In this document: positions 25,705-40,142 of the stretch, one piece after another
How positions within the stretch are numbered: the first letter of the stretch is position 1
How the letters are laid out: each line of letters opens with the position of its first letter
DNA from: Erythrobacter sp.
GTDB lineage: Bacteria > Pseudomonadota > Alphaproteobacteria > Sphingomonadales > Sphingomonadaceae
Length of the DNA: 64,000 nucleotides
Assembly: GCA_002695185.1 (NCBI GenBank)
Contig: NZOF01000163.1
Location: forward strand, 33,292-97,291
Reading direction: 5' to 3'
Notes under the pieces: generated by a model
What the model was told of the DNA's origin: nothing
Seen by the model: the letters and a program-made list of their open reading frames with translations, nothing else
Database searches by the model: none
Made by a program: the position numbers and the translations under genes

Positions 25705-26394
25705 TTACCCCCAGAGAGGGTTTTCGATCCCGGTCATGAACTCTCTGTGCCGTGCCAGTTCTTCTGGTGTCGGCGAATGGGGCCGTGGTTCGCGGCGCGG
25801 CCCGTCGGGCGCCCTGCGCACAGCAACGAATTCCGGAGCAGGCACGGCTTTCGCCTGCTCTGCGGCAAGCTCCAGGCCGATCTGACGGCCACCTTTAAGT
25901 TCGACATATACTTGGGCAAGCAACTCGGCATCAAGCAATGCCCCGTGCTTGACACGGTGGCTGCGATCGATGCCATATCGGCTACAAAGGGCGTCGAGCG
26001 ATAGTTTGGCGCCAGGGTGGCGCTTCTTTGCCAGTTGCACCGTATCCACCATGCGCGTCATGCACACGGGTTCGCACCGGCACAGCGCCAGTTCCGCATT
26101 CAGAAAACCAAAGTCGAACCCGGCATTATGCGCAATCAGCGGGGAGTCCGCGATGAATTCGAGGAGGTCCTGGAACGTGTCCCGAAAAAATGGCTTGTCC
26201 GCCAGGAATGCCGCCGAAAGCCCATGCACGGCTTCCGCGCCAGCGGGCATATCTCGCTCGGGATTGTAATAGGCGTGGAAGGTATTTCCCGTGGGCACCA
26301 GATTGACCATCTCGACGCAGCCGATTTCCACCATCCGATCGCCCGTCTTGGGGTCGAGGCCGGTGGTTTCGGTATCGAAAACTATTTCACGCAT
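25705..26394 (-). CDS. dnaQ: DNA polymerase III epsilon subunit (3'-5' proofreading)
   Basis: A 229-residue DEDDh exonuclease. Motif I is VFDTETTGLDP, motif II HNAGFDFGFLNAEL, and motif III HRVKHGALLDAELLAQVY with the catalytic His. The C-terminal 40 residues are proline-rich and would bind the alpha subunit. It lies 30 bp downstream of coaE, the last gene of a leftward run that starts at the proposed origin. This dnaQ-coaE-aroE-maf order is, as I recall, shared with Caulobacter. Confidence 0.94.
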   Translation of the reverse strand: MREIVFDTETTGLDPKTGDRMVEIGCVEMVNLVPTGNTFHAYYNPERDMPAGAEAVHGLSAAFLADKPFFRDTFQDLLEFIADSPLIAHNAGFDFGFLNAELALCRCEPVCMTRMVDTVQLAKKRHPGAKLSLDALCSRYGIDRSHRVKHGALLDAELLAQVYVELKGGRQIGLELAAEQAKAVPAPEFVAVRRAPDGPRREPRPHSPTPEELARHREFMTGIENPLWG

Positions 26395-26424
26395 TGGGTA
26401 TGCTATCGGACTCGGAAGCGCAGA

Positions 26425-27039
26425 TTACAAGGGGTCACGGCGCTTTGCAGCGTCACGCAACGAGCGAGTCAGCGTAACAACCTCTTCTTCGGTTGCCGCC
26501 AGCGATTGTCCGGTATCGATAATGTGATCGGCCCGCGCGCGCTTTTCTGAATCGGGCATTTGCAGTGATAGAATCTGGGCAAACTTCTCAGGAGTCATAT
26601 CCTGCCGGGCGAGAACGCGCTGTCGTTGAATCTCGGAAGGTGCTGAGACGACCACGACACGATCCACAGACGCCTCTCCGCCTTTTTCGTAGAGCAAGGG
26701 AATGTCGAAGATCACGAATGGGACGTCACCGTGCTTTTCGAGAAATGCCTTCCGCTTTCGTGCAACTGCAGGATGAACGAGCGCCTCGAGCCTCGCAAGC
26801 GCCGCTTTGTCGCCGAAGACTTGCTTACCAAGCTTGTCACGCAATACGCCTGCCGCATCGGTGCTGCCGGGAAACTCCGCTTCGATAGCTTCGACCAATT
26901 CGCCGCCGCGACCCTGCATAGCGCGCACTTCGGCGTCGGCATCGAAAACCGGTATGCCCTCCGCAGCGAACATTGCCGCAACGGTCGATTTCCCCATACC
27001 TATGGAGCCAGTAAGCCCGATAACGAGCGGCCGTTTCAC
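26425..27039 (-). CDS. coaE: Dephospho-CoA kinase
   Basis: Last step of coenzyme A synthesis (phosphorylation of the ribose 3'-OH). The 204-residue product has the P-loop GLTGSIGMGKSTVA, the substrate segment FDADAEVRAMQGRGG, and VFDIPLLYEKG followed by DRVVVVSAPSEIQRQR. The start is GTG at 27039 and overlaps the aroE stop (GTGA). Confidence 0.95.
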   Translation of the reverse strand: MKRPLVIGLTGSIGMGKSTVAAMFAAEGIPVFDADAEVRAMQGRGGELVEAIEAEFPGSTDAAGVLRDKLGKQVFGDKAALARLEALVHPAVARKRKAFLEKHGDVPFVIFDIPLLYEKGGEASVDRVVVVSAPSEIQRQRVLARQDMTPEKFAQILSLQMPDSEKRARADHIIDTGQSLAATEEEVVTLTRSLRDAAKRRDPL

Positions 27040-27887: not shown

Positions 27888-28480
27888 GAGGGTAGAACGC
27901 CTTCCTCGCGCAAGGCATCCAGCACCTGGAGGAGGGGCATACCCAGAACGGTAAACTGGTCGCCCATGATGCTCTCGAATAGCTGAACGCCGGGGCCTTC
28001 GATGCGGAACACGCCCACGCAATAGGAGACGGCGGGCCATTCGGCGGCGAGATAGGCGGCGATGAAATCTTCGCTAAGGTCTCTCATACGGAGGCGGGCG
28101 AATTCGGAGCCGACCCAGATGATCTGGCCGTCCTTGGCGAGGGCGGCGGCGCTGTGGAGGGTCATCACCTTGCCCGAGAAGAACCGCAGGTGTTCCGCGG
28201 CCTGTTCGCGGCTTTCCGGCTTGTCGAAGCGGCGCCCGTCGACCTCTACCAGCGAATCGCTGCCGAGCACGAGGCGGGTGTCCGATATGGCCGCGGCCTT
28301 GGCGGCTGCCAGCGCCTGCGCCACCTCGGCGGGGTCGGCGCCCTCCATCTCGGCCTCGAGCGCGCGCTCGTCCACCTCGGCGGAGCGCGCCTCGAAGGCC
28401 ACACCGGCAGCCTCCAGCATCGCCTTGCGCGAGGCGGAATTCGACGCGAGCACGATGCCGCTGCCCGAGATACCGCTCAT
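27884..28480 (-). CDS. maf: Maf-family nucleoside triphosphate pyrophosphatase
   Basis: A 198-residue house-cleaning enzyme that hydrolyses non-canonical or selected NTPs. The signature is [20 protein letters not shown], followed by [23 protein letters not shown] (catalytic Asp region) and the C-terminal [20 protein letters not shown]. Both ends overlap neighbours by 4 bp (ppsR upstream, aroE downstream), so ppsR-maf-aroE-coaE form one translationally coupled unit. Confidence 0.94.
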
Positions 28481-29388
28481 ATCGCCTTCACTCCTTCGAA
28501 ATCGCCGCCTTCGCGCTGGCTGCGCTCGCCATAGAGGCGGATGATGGCGGCTGCCGTCTCCTCGATCGAGCGGCGGGTGACATCGATCACCGGCCAGCCG
28601 TTATCGGCAAACATGCGCCGGGCAAAGGCCACTTCGCTCTTCACCTTCTCATTGTCGACATAGGCGGTTTCCGACTGTTCGTTGAGCGTCAGCAGCCGGT
28701 TGCGCCGGATCTGGACCAGCCGTTCGGGCGCGGTGGTGAGCCCCACCACCATGGGATTCTTCAGCTCGAACAACTTGGGCGGCGGCGGGCTTTCCACCAC
28801 CAGCGGGATATTGGCGACCTTGTATCCGCGATTGGCGAGATAGATGCTGGTCGGCGTCTTGGAACTGCGCGAGACGCCGGCCAGCAGGATATCCGCCTCT
28901 TCCCATTCATCCCACAGGATGCCGTCATCATGGGCGATGGTGAACTGGATCGCCTCCACCCGGTCGAAATAGGCCTTGTCCATCTGGTGCTGCTTGCCCG
29001 GCCGGCCATGTGCTTCCTGCCCCAGCGCCTTTTCCAGCGCGGCAGTCACCCGGTCGAGGATGGGCACGGCAGGCAGGCCATGCGCCCTGCATACATCTTC
29101 CAACCGCGCCCGCGCATCGGCATTCACCAGCGTGAACAGCACTAGGCCCGGATTGGCCTTGAGCTCGGGCACGATCCGGTCGAGATGCTGGCGGCTCCTG
29201 ACCATGGGCCAGAAATGGCGCACCACATTGGCATCGTCGAACTGCGCGAGCGCCGCTTTTGCCAGCATTTCCAGCGTTTCGCCGGTGCTGTCGGAAAGCA
29301 GGTGAAGGTGGATACGGTCGGAGATAGGATCCTCGCTGGGGGCCTGTGGACAGGCGTGGGATAAACCACGGGACAGCTCTGCCGACAA
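28477..29388 (-). CDS. ppsR: PPDK/PEP synthase regulatory kinase-phosphorylase (DUF299)
   Basis: A bifunctional ADP-dependent kinase/Pi-dependent phosphorylase that switches pyruvate phosphate dikinase or PEP synthase off and on. The 303-residue ORF has [20 protein letters not shown] near the N-terminus and the P-loop [14 protein letters not shown]. The only start codon in frame is TTG at 29388, with no visible Shine-Dalgarno; the first 24 residues are not family-like, and family similarity begins at RIHLHLL. The true start may be nearer 29325 and non-canonical. It is the first leftward gene next to the proposed origin. Confidence 0.9.
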
Positions 29389-29642
29389 GTTCGGGGATGA
29401 AAACGCTCCCCACTACGAGTCAGGCAAGGGGGTGATTCCCGCACACCAAGCGGCGACTTTTGCGCAGGCTGGGAACAGTGGGGACAAATTTGACTCGACT
29501 CAAGCAAGGGCACGAGTCGCATGATCGGATCGAACCCTTCCCACGGCGGGAGAAATAGGGCAGGGGCCACTTGTGCCCGATATCCACAGGGCCAACAGAC
29601 TCCATCAATCCTTATAATAACTAGGTATTATTGGACTCCTGA
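29389..29642. other. oriC: Proposed chromosomal replication origin (oriC)
   Basis: This 254-bp gap separates divergent ppsR and hemE; on both sides genes point away from it over several kilobases. It contains seven GANTC sites (29417, 29434, 29492, 29497, 29514, 29598, 29634), where about one is expected by chance. It also has DnaA-box-like 9-mers: ATATCCACA (29580-29588, one mismatch to TTATCCACA) and TTGTCCCCA on the minus strand (29479-29487, two mismatches); another two-mismatch site lies just left at 29345-29353. An AT-rich stretch occupies 29611-29632. In Caulobacter and Rickettsia the origin lies beside hemE in the same gene order. No perfect DnaA box is present, so this remains an inference. 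Confidence 0.7.
29614..29631. promoter_or_regulatory. Near-perfect 18-bp palindrome just upstream of hemE
   Basis: ATAATAACTAGGTATTAT matches its own reverse complement at 16 of 18 positions, and ends 11 bp before the hemE start codon. It is the most AT-rich patch of the gap. It could be a repressor site or -10 region for hemE, or part of the origin unwinding element. Confidence 0.4.
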
Positions 29643-30668
29643 ATGCCCGGTCCCCTTCTCGATACACTCAACGGTTCTCCCACTGGCACGGTCCCGCTCT
29701 GGCTCATGCGCCAGGCCGGCCGGTATCTCCCCGAATATCGCGAATTGCGCGCCGAAAAGGGCGGATTCCTGGCGATGGCCTACGATAGCGAGGCGGCCTG
29801 CGAGATCACCCTGCAGCCGATCGACCGCTTCGGTTTCGACGGCGCGATCCTGTTTTCCGATATCCTGATCGTGCCCCACGCGCTGGGCCAGCACCTGGAG
29901 TTTCTGGCGGGCGAGGGGCCCAAGCTGTCGCCCCGGTTGGTCGATGCGGCACTGGCCGATCTGACCCGCGATCCTTCGCGCTACGAACCGATCTACCAGA
30001 CGGTGCGCCTGTGCCGTCAGCGCCTGCCCCAAGGCGTGACCATGCTCGGCTTTGCGGGCAGCCCGTGGACCGTGGCGACCTACATGGTCGCTGGCGAGGG
30101 GAGCCGCGATCAGCACGAGGCCCGCGCGCTCGCCTATCGCGATCCGGCAGCCCTGCAGGAGATCGTGGATGCTATTGCCGAGCAGACGATTACCTATCTT
30201 TCCGGCCAGATCGAAGCCGGCGCAGAGGCGGTGCAGCTGTTCGACAGCTGGGCGGGAAGTCTGGCGCCCGACGAATTCGAACGCTGGGTCATCGCGCCCA
30301 ATGCGCGGATCGTGGCGGCGCTGGCAGAGCGGCATCCGACCACGCCGGTCATCGGTTTTCCGAAAGGCGCGGGCGAAAAGCTGCCCGCCTATGCCCGCGA
30401 AACGGGCGTGAAGGCGGTGGGCGTGGACGAAACGCTCGATCCGGTTTGGGTGGCGCGCGAACTTCCTGACGGCATGCCGGTTCAGGGTAATCTCGATCCG
30501 CTGCTGCTGCTTGCCGGTTCGGACCGGCTCGAAGAGCGCGTAAATACCATTCTCGATGCGTTCGCTGGGCGACCGCATGTCTTCAATCTGGGGCACGGAA
30601 TCGACCGGCGCACCCCCATCGCCCATGTCGAGCGACTGATTGCGGCAGTGCGTGGATGGAAGGGGTGA
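29643..30668 (+). CDS. hemE: Uroporphyrinogen decarboxylase
   Basis: Decarboxylates uroporphyrinogen III to coproporphyrinogen III in heme synthesis. The 341-residue product has the N-terminal signature PLWLMRQAGRYLPEYRELRA, the catalytic Asp region FDGAILFSDILIVPHALG, GFAGSPWTVATYMVAGEGS, QLFDSWAGSLAP and the C-terminal HVFNLGHGIDRRTPIAHV. It is the first rightward gene from the proposed origin, and hemJ follows 31 bp later. Confidence 0.97.
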   Translation: MPGPLLDTLNGSPTGTVPLWLMRQAGRYLPEYRELRAEKGGFLAMAYDSEAACEITLQPIDRFGFDGAILFSDILIVPHALGQHLEFLAGEGPKLSPRLVDAALADLTRDPSRYEPIYQTVRLCRQRLPQGVTMLGFAGSPWTVATYMVAGEGSRDQHEARALAYRDPAALQEIVDAIAEQTITYLSGQIEAGAEAVQLFDSWAGSLAPDEFERWVIAPNARIVAALAERHPTTPVIGFPKGAGEKLPAYARETGVKAVGVDETLDPVWVARELPDGMPVQGNLDPLLLLAGSDRLEERVNTILDAFAGRPHVFNLGHGIDRRTPIAHVERLIAAVRGWKG

Positions 30669-35863: not shown

Positions 35864-35879
35864 TGTTTCACGTGAAACA
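35864..35879. promoter_or_regulatory. parS: parS site, perfect 16-mer, between mnmE and mnmG
   Basis: TGTTTCACGTGAAACA is an exact match to the canonical 16-bp palindrome bound by ParB. It starts 9 bp after the mnmE stop and is the only parS in this window that lies between genes. Confidence 0.95.
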
Positions 35880-37781: not shown

Positions 37782-38419
37782 TCGCCACTGAGACTGAGGC
37801 GCGTGAGTTTATCGGTAATTTAGCCGAAGCCGATGAGCAGGGCGTCACGGCTAAGTTGGAAACTCTGGCTCTAGCCTTGAACAACGAGAATGGACGACAA
37901 AATCTCGTATCCAAATCCTCTCTCGAGGATATCTGGGTTCGCCATTTTGCCGACTCTGCGCAGTTACTTAATCACGTTTCACGTGAAACTACTGGAACGT
38001 GGGTTGACCTTGGGAGTGGGGCGGGGTTCCCAGGCTTGGTCGTCTCTATTCTTAAGCCCAACGAAAAACTGATACTGATCGAGTCGCGTCGGAAGAGAGT
38101 TGAATGGCTACAGACCATGGTCGACACTCTCCAACTTCCTAATTGCGAGGTTATCGGTTCGAGACTGGAACTAGTCGAGAATTTTCCGGCAAAGGTTATT
38201 TCCGCACGCGCCTTCGCGCCTTTGCCAAAACTCCTCAGGTTATCCGCACGCTTCTCCACAGGAGCTACGACTTGGGTCTTGCCCAAGGGCCGCTCTGCAA
38301 CCCAAGAAGTTGAAGAACTTTCCCCCAAACTGAAATCAATGTTTCACGTGCAACAATCAGTGACTGACGCGGATGCGGGAATCGTCGTTGGGCATGGCAA
38401 GATAGGGACGGGAAAATGA
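37778..38419 (+). CDS. rsmG: 16S rRNA (guanine527-N7) methyltransferase
   Basis: Methylates G527 of 16S rRNA (formerly gidB). The 213-residue product has [18 protein letters not shown] (SAM loop), [16 protein letters not shown] and [15 protein letters not shown] chose the ATG at 37778: it overlaps the mnmG stop (ATGA) and has AGGAGG upstream. Two parS sites lie inside it, one in the frame of HVSRET and one in MFHVQQ. Its stop overlaps the parA start. Confidence 0.95.
37976..37989. promoter_or_regulatory. parS: parS core inside rsmG
   Basis: GTTTCACGTGAAAC is an exact 14-bp parS core; the outer bases are C and T instead of T and A. Confidence 0.88.
38340..38355. promoter_or_regulatory. parS: parS site, one mismatch, near the end of rsmG
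   Basis: TGTTTCACGTGCAACA differs at one base from the canonical 16-mer and lies 61 bp before the parA start codon. Confidence 0.65.
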
Positions 38420-39204
38420 TTACAATTGCGATCGCTAATCAGAAAGGTGGCGTCGGTAAGACTACCAGCGCAATCAATATAGCTACAGCAATGGCGGCGT
38501 CTGGGTGGCGGACGCTGTTGATCGATCTCGATCCACAGGGGAACGCATCGACCGGGCTGGGCATTGAAAACTCAGCGCGTGAATATACGAGCTATGATCT
38601 TCTTATGGGGGAAGCAACGCTTTCCCAAGCGGCCCAGAAGTCGGAAATCCCCTCCTTGGATGTCGTGCCCGCTACGCAGGACCTGTCTGGAGCCGAAGTG
38701 GAACTGGTTGCCGTAGAGGACCGCACGCACCGCCTCCGGAAGGCTCTCGGTGCGCAGGATTCCGGCTCGGCTTCATATGATGTCGTCTTTATCGACTGCC
38801 CACCTTCCTTGGGTCTGCTGACGCTCAATGCTCTTTGCGCCTCGAACACCTTACTTGTGCCGCTGCAGTGTGAATTCTTTGCTCTCGAAGGTCTTAGTCA
38901 GCTCCTTCAGACGGTCGAACGCGTGCAACAGCGCTTCAATCCCGACCTCGACATAGTTGGTATCGCCTTGACGATGTTCGACCGTCGTAATCGTCTTACG
39001 GATCAGGTGGCTGATGACGTGAGAGATTGCCTTGGTAATCTTGTTTTCGAAAACGTCATCCCACGTAATGTCAGATTATCGGAAGCGCCCAGTCATGGGA
39101 TGCCCGCCTTGATTTACGATCACAATTGTTCGGGCAGCAGGGCCTATATCGGCCTGGCCAGAGAGCTGATTGGTCGTCTCCCCGAAAAAAGGAAAGCCGC
39201 ATGA
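38416..39204 (+). CDS. parA: Chromosome-partitioning ATPase ParA
   Basis: A 262-residue Walker-type ATPase that moves ParB-parS complexes. The deviant Walker A is NQKGGVGKTTSAINIA, with LLIDLDPQGNASTGLG and the Walker B-like VVFIDCPPSLGLLT after it. Length and N-terminus are those of chromosomal (type Ib-like) ParA, without a DNA-binding extension. It overlaps rsmG and parB by 4 bp each, so rsmG-parA-parB are translationally coupled. Confidence 0.96.
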   Translation: MITIAIANQKGGVGKTTSAINIATAMAASGWRTLLIDLDPQGNASTGLGIENSAREYTSYDLLMGEATLSQAAQKSEIPSLDVVPATQDLSGAEVELVAVEDRTHRLRKALGAQDSGSASYDVVFIDCPPSLGLLTLNALCASNTLLVPLQCEFFALEGLSQLLQTVERVQQRFNPDLDIVGIALTMFDRRNRLTDQVADDVRDCLGNLVFENVIPRNVRLSEAPSHGMPALIYDHNCSGSRAYIGLARELIGRLPEKRKAA

Positions 39205-40142
39205 GCGCCGCAGTCGACCGCAAGAAGAAACTCGGCCGGGGACTTGGAGCCCTGATGGGGGAAATCCAGCGCGAAGAGCCGCTTGCGCCGAAAACCGGTA
39301 ACAACGGTAATGAGATGGCTGCGGGGCAGACGCCGAATGCTTCCGGTCTGGCGGATATCCCTGTTGCCGATATCAGCCCGTTGCCCGGTCAGCCGCGCAC
39401 GCGCTTCGATGACGAGGCGCTCGACCAGCTGGCAGCCTCCATAGCTCAACGCGGCGTCATCCAGCCAATTATTGTCACGACCAAGGGGCAGGGAAGGTAC
39501 CAGCTCGTAGCGGGGGAACGACGCTGGAGGGCCGCCCAACGCGCGCGTCTGCATACTATTCCAGCCATCGTCAGGGCGTTGGACCAGCGCGAGATCATGG
39601 CTCTGGCTCTCATCGAGAACCTCCAGCGCGAAGACCTGAATCCGCTGGAAGAAGCTCGGGCCTATCAGAAACTGTCCGAAGATGAGGGGATGACCCAGGC
39701 CGAGATTGCCAAACTCGTCGATAAATCGCGCAGCCATGTAGCCAATTTTCAGCGCCTTCTAGCTCTGCCGGATGACGTTCTGGACATGTTGGCGGACGGC
39801 CGGCTTTCGATGGGACATGCACGCCCGCTGATTGGCAACGAAGAGGCTTCCGAACTCGCCAACCGCGCAGTTAACGACAACCTCTCCGTTCGTGAGGTGG
39901 AAAAACTAGCACGCGGCGAAAAGCCGAAGAAAAACGCTCAGACGAAAAAGCCGAATGCGGCGGGTGAGGGCGCGGACGATCCGGATATTGCCGCGGTCCA
40001 GGGCCACCTGGAGGAATTTCTGGGCCTGGCGGTGCGGATCAAGCCTGAAGGCGCGCCCGGCAATGGCACCGTGACGATAAGTTATCGCACCCTCGACCAG
40101 CTCGACCTGATTTGTCAGCGCCTGACAGGGGGCGATATCTAG
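39201..40142 (+). CDS. parB: Chromosome-partitioning protein ParB
   Basis: A parS-binding CTPase clamp. The 313-residue product has the N-terminal ParA-activating motif KLGRGLGALMGE, the CTP-binding boxes QPRTRFDDEALDQLAASIAQ and VAGERRWRAAQRARL, the helix-turn-helix MTQAEIAKLVDKSRSHVANF, and a C-terminal dimerisation domain after a Lys/Ala/Gly-rich linker (about 225-255). I chose the ATG at 39201 overlapping the parA stop. Its target sites are present at five positions nearby. Confidence 0.96.
   Translation: MSAAVDRKKKLGRGLGALMGEIQREEPLAPKTGNNGNEMAAGQTPNASGLADIPVADISPLPGQPRTRFDDEALDQLAASIAQRGVIQPIIVTTKGQGRYQLVAGERRWRAAQRARLHTIPAIVRALDQREIMALALIENLQREDLNPLEEARAYQKLSEDEGMTQAEIAKLVDKSRSHVANFQRLLALPDDVLDMLADGRLSMGHARPLIGNEEASELANRAVNDNLSVREVEKLARGEKPKKNAQTKKPNAAGEGADDPDIAAVQGHLEEFLGLAVRIKPEGAPGNGTVTISYRTLDQLDLICQRLTGGDI

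Follow-up and report, generated by a model that had tools for sequence, protein, structure and literature searches.

The gap between the PPSR gene and hemE

The window, which is the whole stretch of 64,000 nucleotides that was analysed, contains a 254-bp gap between two genes, PPSR (COG1806) and hemE. Its nearest named relative is Qipengyuania aestuarii (97.7% identity in PPSR and 96.2% in hemE), and judged by sequence the window belongs to Qipengyuania or a close relative. A family set of 80 loci was fetched by PPSR, and 80 sequences including the window were aligned. The features of the locus are given below, with the retention of each GANTC site in the 33 nearest loci and in the 46 other relatives. 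DnaA boxes were scored against TTATCCACA, which we take to be the consensus, and parS-like sites against the parS consensus.

28477..29388, minus strand: PPSR gene (COG1806, PF03618), left boundary gene; Pfam PF03618 E 7.7e-95, NCBIfam PRK05339 above cut-off
29345..29353, minus strand: DnaA-box-like CTGTCCACA, two mismatches to the consensus; TGTGGA block kept in the family alignment
29360..29374, unstranded: near-invariant block GATAAACCACGGGAC (family consensus) at the PPSR end of the gap
29417..29421, unstranded: GANTC site 1 (GAGTC); kept in 30/33 nearest, 13/46 others
29434..29438, unstranded: GANTC site 2 (GATTC); 30/33 nearest, 1/46 others
29479..29487, minus strand: weak DnaA-box-like TTGTCCCCA, two mismatches to the consensus
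29492..29496, unstranded: GANTC site 3 (GACTC); 32/33 nearest, 9/46 others
29496..29519: inverted repeat CGACTC-N12-GAGTCG, containing GANTC sites 4 and 5
29497: GANTC site 4; 33/33 nearest, 22/46 others
29514: GANTC site 5; 33/33 nearest, 46/46 others
29580..29588, plus strand: DnaA box ATATCCACA adjoining the unwinding element, one mismatch to the consensus
29589..29611, plus strand: GGGCC spacer and G-poor tract at the place of a DnaA-trio array
29598: GANTC site 6, inside the preceding tract; 31/33 nearest, 28/46 others
29612..29633, unstranded: AT-rich tract, putative DNA unwinding element; anchored from the closest relative's copy (L096), AT-rich in aligned relatives
29634..29638, unstranded: GANTC site 7 (GACTC), between the unwinding element and hemE; counted in 11/33 nearest, 1/46 others
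29643..30668, plus strand: hemE (uroporphyrinogen decarboxylase), right boundary gene; PF01208 E 3.5e-109
35864..35879, unstranded: parS-like site, exact match to the consensus
37975, 38340 and 43162: three further parS-like sites, one to two mismatches
38416-39204, plus strand: parA-like ORF, AAA_31/CbiA (ParA-type ATPase) E 1.4e-60
39126-40142, plus strand: parB ORF, ParB_N E 1e-33, with HTH_ParB and ParB_C

The longest PPSR ORF opens with TTG at 29388, and many relatives align only from about residue 12-25. The true start of PPSR may be downstream of this TTG, and the non-coding gap may therefore exceed 254 bp. Conservation over the first 20 or so PPSR codons looks like that of a DNA motif rather than of a protein. 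A sequence related to GATAAACCACGGGAC, namely GATAAATCAAGG, occurs in some other Sphingomonadales gaps.

The locus holds one DnaA box with one mismatch and two with two mismatches, together with an AT-rich element. The TCCACAGGGCCAACA columns of the box at 29580 are near-invariant across the 80 sequences, as is GGGCCAACA directly after it. Positions 29589-29611 were aligned to the trio-like CCACTACAACTACAATC tracts of other origins via the copy in L096, which is identical here; in our reading the trio tract of the window is a degenerate one, AACAGACTCCATCAATCC. A scan with consensus motifs found no TTAA-N7-TTAA, TTAACC or IHF site in the gap, and an Rfam search of 28900-30200 found nothing.

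A replication origin had been proposed here from the letters alone, partly on the grounds that leftward and rightward gene runs diverge and that the gene order resembles that at the Caulobacter and Rickettsia origins. The gap separates PPSR on the minus strand from hemE on the plus strand, and the same genes bound the two known origins, since Caulobacter Cori and the Rickettsia prowazekii origin both lie between hemE and COG1806 (PMC1914354, in excerpt). Among relatives of the window, hemE and PPSR flank the gap in 79/80 loci, the 80th being a contig end without hemE, and a divergent hemE adjoins PPSR in 150 of 158 wider alphaproteobacterial loci.

The same reading named GC skew as a check. 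Skew was sampled in three relatives, in 20 stretches of 20 kb each, and the expected change of sign at the gap was seen in two. In Erythrobacter rubeus the skew is -0.005 at 2.64 Mb and +0.010 at 2.676 Mb, the gap lying at about 2.677 Mb. The reverse change falls at 1.02-1.18 Mb, on roughly the opposite side of the chromosome, and one stretch is discordant (2.36 Mb, +0.003). In the relative G046, whose PPSR is 83% identical and whose gap holds seven GANTC, it is -0.010 immediately left and +0.017 immediately right of the gap, with some far-side stretches near zero. The sampled skew of Q. citrea was noisy and a flip at the gap is not clear. Genes for a ParA-type ATPase and ParB and the four parS-like sites are also close by, 6-14 kb from the gap on the hemE side; a scan for parS-like sites gave these four matches in the window and none in 100 shuffles.

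We regard the gap as very probably the oriC of a Qipengyuania-like bacterium because of the hemE/COG1806 synteny, the skew flips in two of the three relatives, the nearby parABS genes and sites, and the unit of DnaA box and AT-rich tract on the hemE side. The origin proposed by the sequence-only reading is thus backed by several lines of comparison.

GANTC sites in the window and its relatives

GANTC is the target of CcrM, and such sites are present at the putative origin at a density above chance. Direct motif counting gives seven starts in the gap (29417, 29434, 29492, 29497, 29514, 29598 and 29634), every one exactly where the sequence-only reading had placed it. That reading had expected about one by chance in such a length, in agreement with dinucleotide shuffles of the gap, which have a mean of 1.19 and reach seven in none of 20,000 runs. 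For seven sites the Poisson tail, computed with the GANTC rate of the window itself, is 1.8e-6, or about 5e-4 after correction for 252 bins. The gap is the GANTC-richest 254-bp stretch of the window: 33 of 63,747 sliding 254-bp windows hold seven sites, every one of them covering the gap. GANTC also tops the 16 XYNY'X' palindromes within the gap, with seven occurrences against three for the runner-up.

In the window as a whole GANTC is generally avoided, since 140 sites are observed against 337 +/- 18 in dinucleotide shuffles. The count of about one site in each flank given by the sequence-only reading was correct for hemE up to 30.3 kb, which has one (29764), and incorrect for 28.8-29.388 kb, which has none; the nearest GANTC on the PPSR side is at 28755. 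The density in the gap is 2.76 per 100 bp, against 0.86 for the second-densest of the window's 12 intergenic stretches. It is also higher than in any of 295 intergenic stretches sampled in three relatives, where the densest reach 1.57, 0.83 and 1.39 per 100 bp (among 104, 90 and 101), a comparison made with a home-made approximate gene caller and with the origin gaps of G046 and Q. citrea outside the sampled stretches. It had been suggested that many bins of 250 bp with six or more sites elsewhere would speak against the proposal; as far as the sampling goes there are none such, since in each of three relatives 0 of 1,560 non-overlapping 254-bp bins reach six. With sliding windows, two relatives have one six-GANTC cluster each outside the gap (G002 C1 67768-67991; G046 C1 2521933-2522171).

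The second-densest place in the window, with six GANTC at 26409-26632 (sliding windows 26379-26662), lies in the 3' end of coaE and the upstream region of dnaQ. It was considered as a second site of interest and dropped, as the matching place has one GANTC in Q. aestuarii and 0-3 in 77 relatives.

Alignment of the gap across related genera, another check that had been suggested, shows that the cluster is kept. The gap is present in 79/80 relatives, with 1-9 GANTC each. All 33 of the nearest loci hold 4-8 sites (mean 6.9), and the other 46 relatives hold 1-9 (mean 3.8; E. rubeus has 2). Among the flanking 254-bp bins of the 80 family loci, 1 in 4,890 has five or more. Site 29514 reads GA[G/T]TC in 80/80 sequences including the window, with N being G in 51 and T in 29, and the spacing from the GAC at 29497 to the GANTCG at 29514 is fixed at 14 in 70/80. 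Site 29634 is undercounted because the AT-rich tail aligns badly; by eye, GACTC stands immediately before hemE in 18 of 20 viewed rows of the 33 nearest loci.

It is very probable, from these comparisons of sequence, that the GANTC cluster is kept by selection at fixed places. The 33 nearest loci all hold 4-8 sites against a single flanking bin in 4,890 with five or more, and 29514 is invariant though its N varies. The cluster at 26409-26632 is not conserved, and the density of the gap is far above that of other sampled intergenic DNA, which argues for selection in the same way.

Blocks like GAGTCAAGCTGTTGGCA were seen by eye to recur in remoter Sphingomonadales-like gaps (L102, L112, L117, L170, L176 and L183). 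They run opposite to the TTGACTC of Erythrobacteraceae, and the copy in L170 is without a full GANTC.

Placement of GANTC in alphaproteobacterial origins

A survey of 79 genomes of the order and 153 of the class gave 158 PPSR loci that were read. The reading covered all except 8 of 78 PPSR genomes in the order survey and 14 of 105 in the class survey, one of these 14 (G205) being added later, without a hemE match. A 389-genome survey contributed 24 new CcrM-negative genomes, chosen by eye from two lists, and 40 new CcrM-positive ones. Loci without a hemE match number 8/158 in the first set and 8/65 in the added set, and some of the 80 named loci recur among the genomes drawn (e.g. L096 is the genome of L001).

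The observed/expected ratio (O/E) of GANTC is 1.77 in 150 gaps and 0.40 in the flanks. The resulting gap/flank ratio of 4.4 is the highest of the 16 palindromes, and the runner-up reaches 2.1. The cluster is widespread without being universal, since 25 of the 150 gaps have no GANTC at all. Anchoring the gaps on their AT-rich tract shows a common unit of DnaA box, G-poor trio-like tract (e.g. CCACTACAACTACAATC) and AT-rich element. A further 57 gaps brought the total to 207, of which 184 were anchored, and the 23 with an anchor score below 5 lie outside the zone counts.

Across these 184 origins, GANTC exceeds the best other of the 16 classes of equal composition in four zones: the PPSR side (332 against 248), the box (47 against 26.5), the trio tract (25 against 7) and, most steeply, the unwinding element (63 against 13). 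Between the unwinding element and hemE there are 29 sites, rank 11 of 16. By composition, O/E in the first 138 anchored gaps is lowest on the PPSR side (1.6), higher in the box (3.7) and trio (3.9) zones and highest in the unwinding zone (11.2); in the trio zone of these 138 gaps GGNCC exceeds expectation more than GANTC does. The 63 sites in the unwinding zone compare with a mean of 6.9 and a maximum of 15 in 1,000 within-zone letter shuffles, and after thinning to 141 unlike gaps 49 sites compare with 5.6 in shuffles. GANTC ranks first of 88 two-G/C patterns in this zone, where other palindromes of equal composition are fewer (AGNCT 13, CTNAG 9) and N is T in 36, A in 11, G in 9 and C in 7. 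In the box zone GANTC often reads GATTCACA, and N is T in 26/47.

In the interval that begins 50 before the start of the AT tract and ends 25 beyond it, 98/184 origins have at least one GANTC and 86/184 have none. Sites in the unwinding zone itself are found in 56/184, and this trait is not one inherited accident, because it changes at least 33 times on a FastTree tree. The unwinding unit is not the sole place where GANTC accumulates, since the PPSR side is enriched too (332 observed against 195 expected, 1.7x, less steep than the unwinding zone) and holds five of the window's seven sites. Of the other two, 29598 belongs to the trio tract and 29634 sits where the AT tract ends towards hemE.

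GANTC has been described as rising strongly around the origin in four alphaproteobacterial orders, in a data set that includes Sphingomonadales (PMC9836097, in excerpt), and enrichment of this kind is hence not new. The density of GANTC in three relatives agrees with that published rise (PMC9836097, in excerpt), falling with distance from the origin with rho of -0.42, -0.63 and -0.55 (p 0.06, 0.003 and 0.01). In G002, G003 and G046 GANTC shows the steepest such fall of the 16 palindromes, with no trend in G+C. No report of GANTC placed on the unit of DnaA box, trios and unwinding element was found in searches of an open-access library, mostly at the level of listings.

Methylation and the function of the sites

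A candidate for the cognate solitary methyltransferase is found among the relatives, as a CcrM homologue in the closest one. The homologue of Q. aestuarii carries N6_N4_Mtase and RAMA domains and, among NCBIfam models, matches CcrM (Caulobacter type) best, at 594.8 bits and so below the cut-off of 830. Similarly strong N6_N4_Mtase-family matches occur in 4/4 near relatives, and GcrA in 4/5. The GANTC sites are likely to be methylated in the organism of the window. That their methylation affects initiation is possible, and here we lean slightly to the negative.

Searches with the Q. aestuarii homologue at E 1e-20 gave matches in 51/60, 74/78 and 19/20 surveyed genomes, G080 and G175 being scored positive on partial or weak matches. 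Loss of GANTC enrichment where CcrM is absent was looked for in these origins and the contrast is flat, with only four independent pairs on supported branches, too few for a decision. GANTC in the unwinding zone is found in 7/21 origins without a CcrM match and in 49/163 with one, which is the same share, and box-zone GANTC is found in 8/21 of the former. A recheck at E 1e-3 of all 30 CcrM-negative genomes that have a gap gave weak or partial matches in 16 (none better than 5e-18) and no match in 14. The absence of CcrM from those assemblies stands at this level, though contigs may be missing or another GANTC enzyme may be present. The dependence of the sites on CcrM is not established, because 7/21 CcrM-negative origins keep unwinding-zone GANTC; the flat contrast could stem from missing contigs, from a recent loss of the enzyme, from a different enzyme or from a function of the sequence as such.

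The sequence-only reading had gone further, proposing that a cluster at the origin would let one enzyme couple replication to the cell cycle. The evidence stops short of this: the sites persist in genomes without a CcrM match, and Caulobacter lacking ccrM has a normal DNA content profile and initiates normally, while overproduction of CcrM leads to extra chromosomes and Cori contains GANTC (PMC3973325, in excerpt).

On balance we favour the view that the gap is an oriC with GANTC sites selected as CcrM targets, their methylation state most likely tuning the binding of DnaA or the opening of the strands. DnaA would bind boxes ending in ATATCCACA at 29580, would then pass through the GGGCC and trio-like tract, and would open the AT-rich tract at 29612-29633. 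The GANTC sites, which selection would maintain for CcrM to act on, would be fully methylated before firing and hemimethylated once the fork leaves, and this state would last until CcrM is synthesised late in the cycle. In Caulobacter, CcrM is made late in the cell cycle and the origin is hemimethylated until then. Methylation at the junction of box, trios and unwinding element would most likely tune DnaA binding or strand opening, and a just-fired origin would thereby be distinguishable from an unfired one. Between box and opening these steps are those of the established DnaA scheme, and the tuning by methylation is what we infer. More tentatively, alphaproteobacteria might have repeatedly set CcrM sites on the unit at which DnaA melts the origin (last DnaA box, trio tract and AT-rich element), as a second, independently evolved methylation gate on strand opening, parallel to GATC in E. 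coli; at least 33 changes of the unwinding-zone trait among 184 origins would then mean many gains and losses of this arrangement.

The gap could instead be an origin in which GANTC serves transcription, with CcrM and GcrA timing the divergent hemE and PPSR promoters and any effect on replication being indirect or nil. We consider this unlikely, although several observations fit it. GANTC is enriched in alphaproteobacterial intergenic DNA and GcrA reads it at promoters (PMC3973325, PMC8116508, both in excerpt), and GcrA is present in most of the near relatives (4/5). A -35-like TTGAC stands at 29490-29494 in the window and at 29495-29499 in 33/80 sequences, the 29497-to-29514 spacing is fixed (14 in 70/80), the PPSR side, itself enriched class-wide, accounts for five of the seven sites, and initiation in Caulobacter is normal after loss of CcrM (PMC3973325, in excerpt). 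Against these stands the density of the gap, 2.76 GANTC per 100 bp, when divergent intergenic stretches sampled in three relatives have 0.12-0.24. The steepest excess across the class is on the unit of DnaA box, trios and unwinding element. The interval from that unit to hemE, a possible place for a hemE promoter, shows no excess (29 sites, rank 11 of 16).

A role of the sequence rather than of its methylation, with GATTCACA doubling as a DnaA box and AAGANTCTT acting as a breakpoint or hairpin that aids opening, would fit the frequent GATTCACA among box-zone sites (N is T in 26/47) and the origins without a CcrM match that keep sites in the unwinding zone (7/21) and box zone (8/21). It seems rather improbable, as GA-TC is constant in the unwinding zone amid changing neighbours and a changing N, N varies at 29514 too, other palindromes of equal composition are much scarcer in that zone (AGNCT 13 and CTNAG 9 against 63), and the absence of CcrM may reflect an assembly gap in some genomes. 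Coding DNA is known to avoid GANTC (PMC3973325, in excerpt), and overall avoidance is seen in the window, so long non-coding gaps could look rich by chance or passive tolerance. This last explanation is already largely refuted and barely credible: the gaps exceed the expectation from composition and not merely the flanks (O/E 1.77, 150 gaps), the gap of the window is about ten times or more denser than other sampled intergenic DNA of relatives, and one GANTC site is invariant.

Read from sequence, the gap of the window appears to be an origin of an ordinary kind whose GANTC set is unusually strong and in part invariant. The origin call and the selection are firm, and the role of methylation in timing is a fair hypothesis set against the Caulobacter counter-evidence and the flat CcrM contrast. 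Published evidence for an influence of GANTC methylation on DnaA-dependent initiation in alphaproteobacteria points both ways, as an excess of CcrM gives extra chromosomes and its loss in Caulobacter leaves initiation normal (PMC3973325, in excerpt). The positions of the sites name the bases to change in a test, since many are kept, one is invariant in 80/80 and one lies inside the trio tract. If the favoured explanation is true, methylation marks at origins evolved twice, with different enzymes acting on the same mechanical step; if it is not, strong conserved clustering of a motif at an origin need not mean control of replication.

The oriC of E. coli has GATC sites for Dam, some of them at the unwinding element, and is sequestered by SeqA. 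The gap is like it in its dense set of methylation targets, a few of which fall at the unwinding element, and unlike it in enzyme and motif; Caulobacter without CcrM initiates normally (PMC3973325, in excerpt). Cori of Caulobacter crescentus shares with the gap the hemE/COG1806 flanks, DnaA boxes and an AT-rich tract (PMC1914354, in excerpt), and, with its close relatives, several GANTC motifs (PMC3973325, in excerpt). It differs in having five CtrA sites and an IHF site (PMC1914354, in excerpt), of which a scan with consensus motifs found none in the window gap; we take these sites to be a trait of Cori and not as required of the whole hemE/COG1806 class.

Agrobacterium ori2 (repABC) is likewise GANTC-rich. 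It is often delayed in hypomethylated cells and over-initiates in hypermethylated cells, and its authors suggest that hemimethylation may prevent re-firing (PMC11514494, in excerpt); it is a RepC-dependent secondary origin, unlike the DnaA-dependent hemE/COG1806 origin here. The hemE side of the gap has the order of DnaA box, GC spacer and DnaA-trios known from the unwinding units of B. subtilis and H. pylori (PMC8235120, in excerpt), and differs from these in that its trio tract, in our reading, is degenerate (AACAGACTCCATCAATCC) and contains a GANTC.
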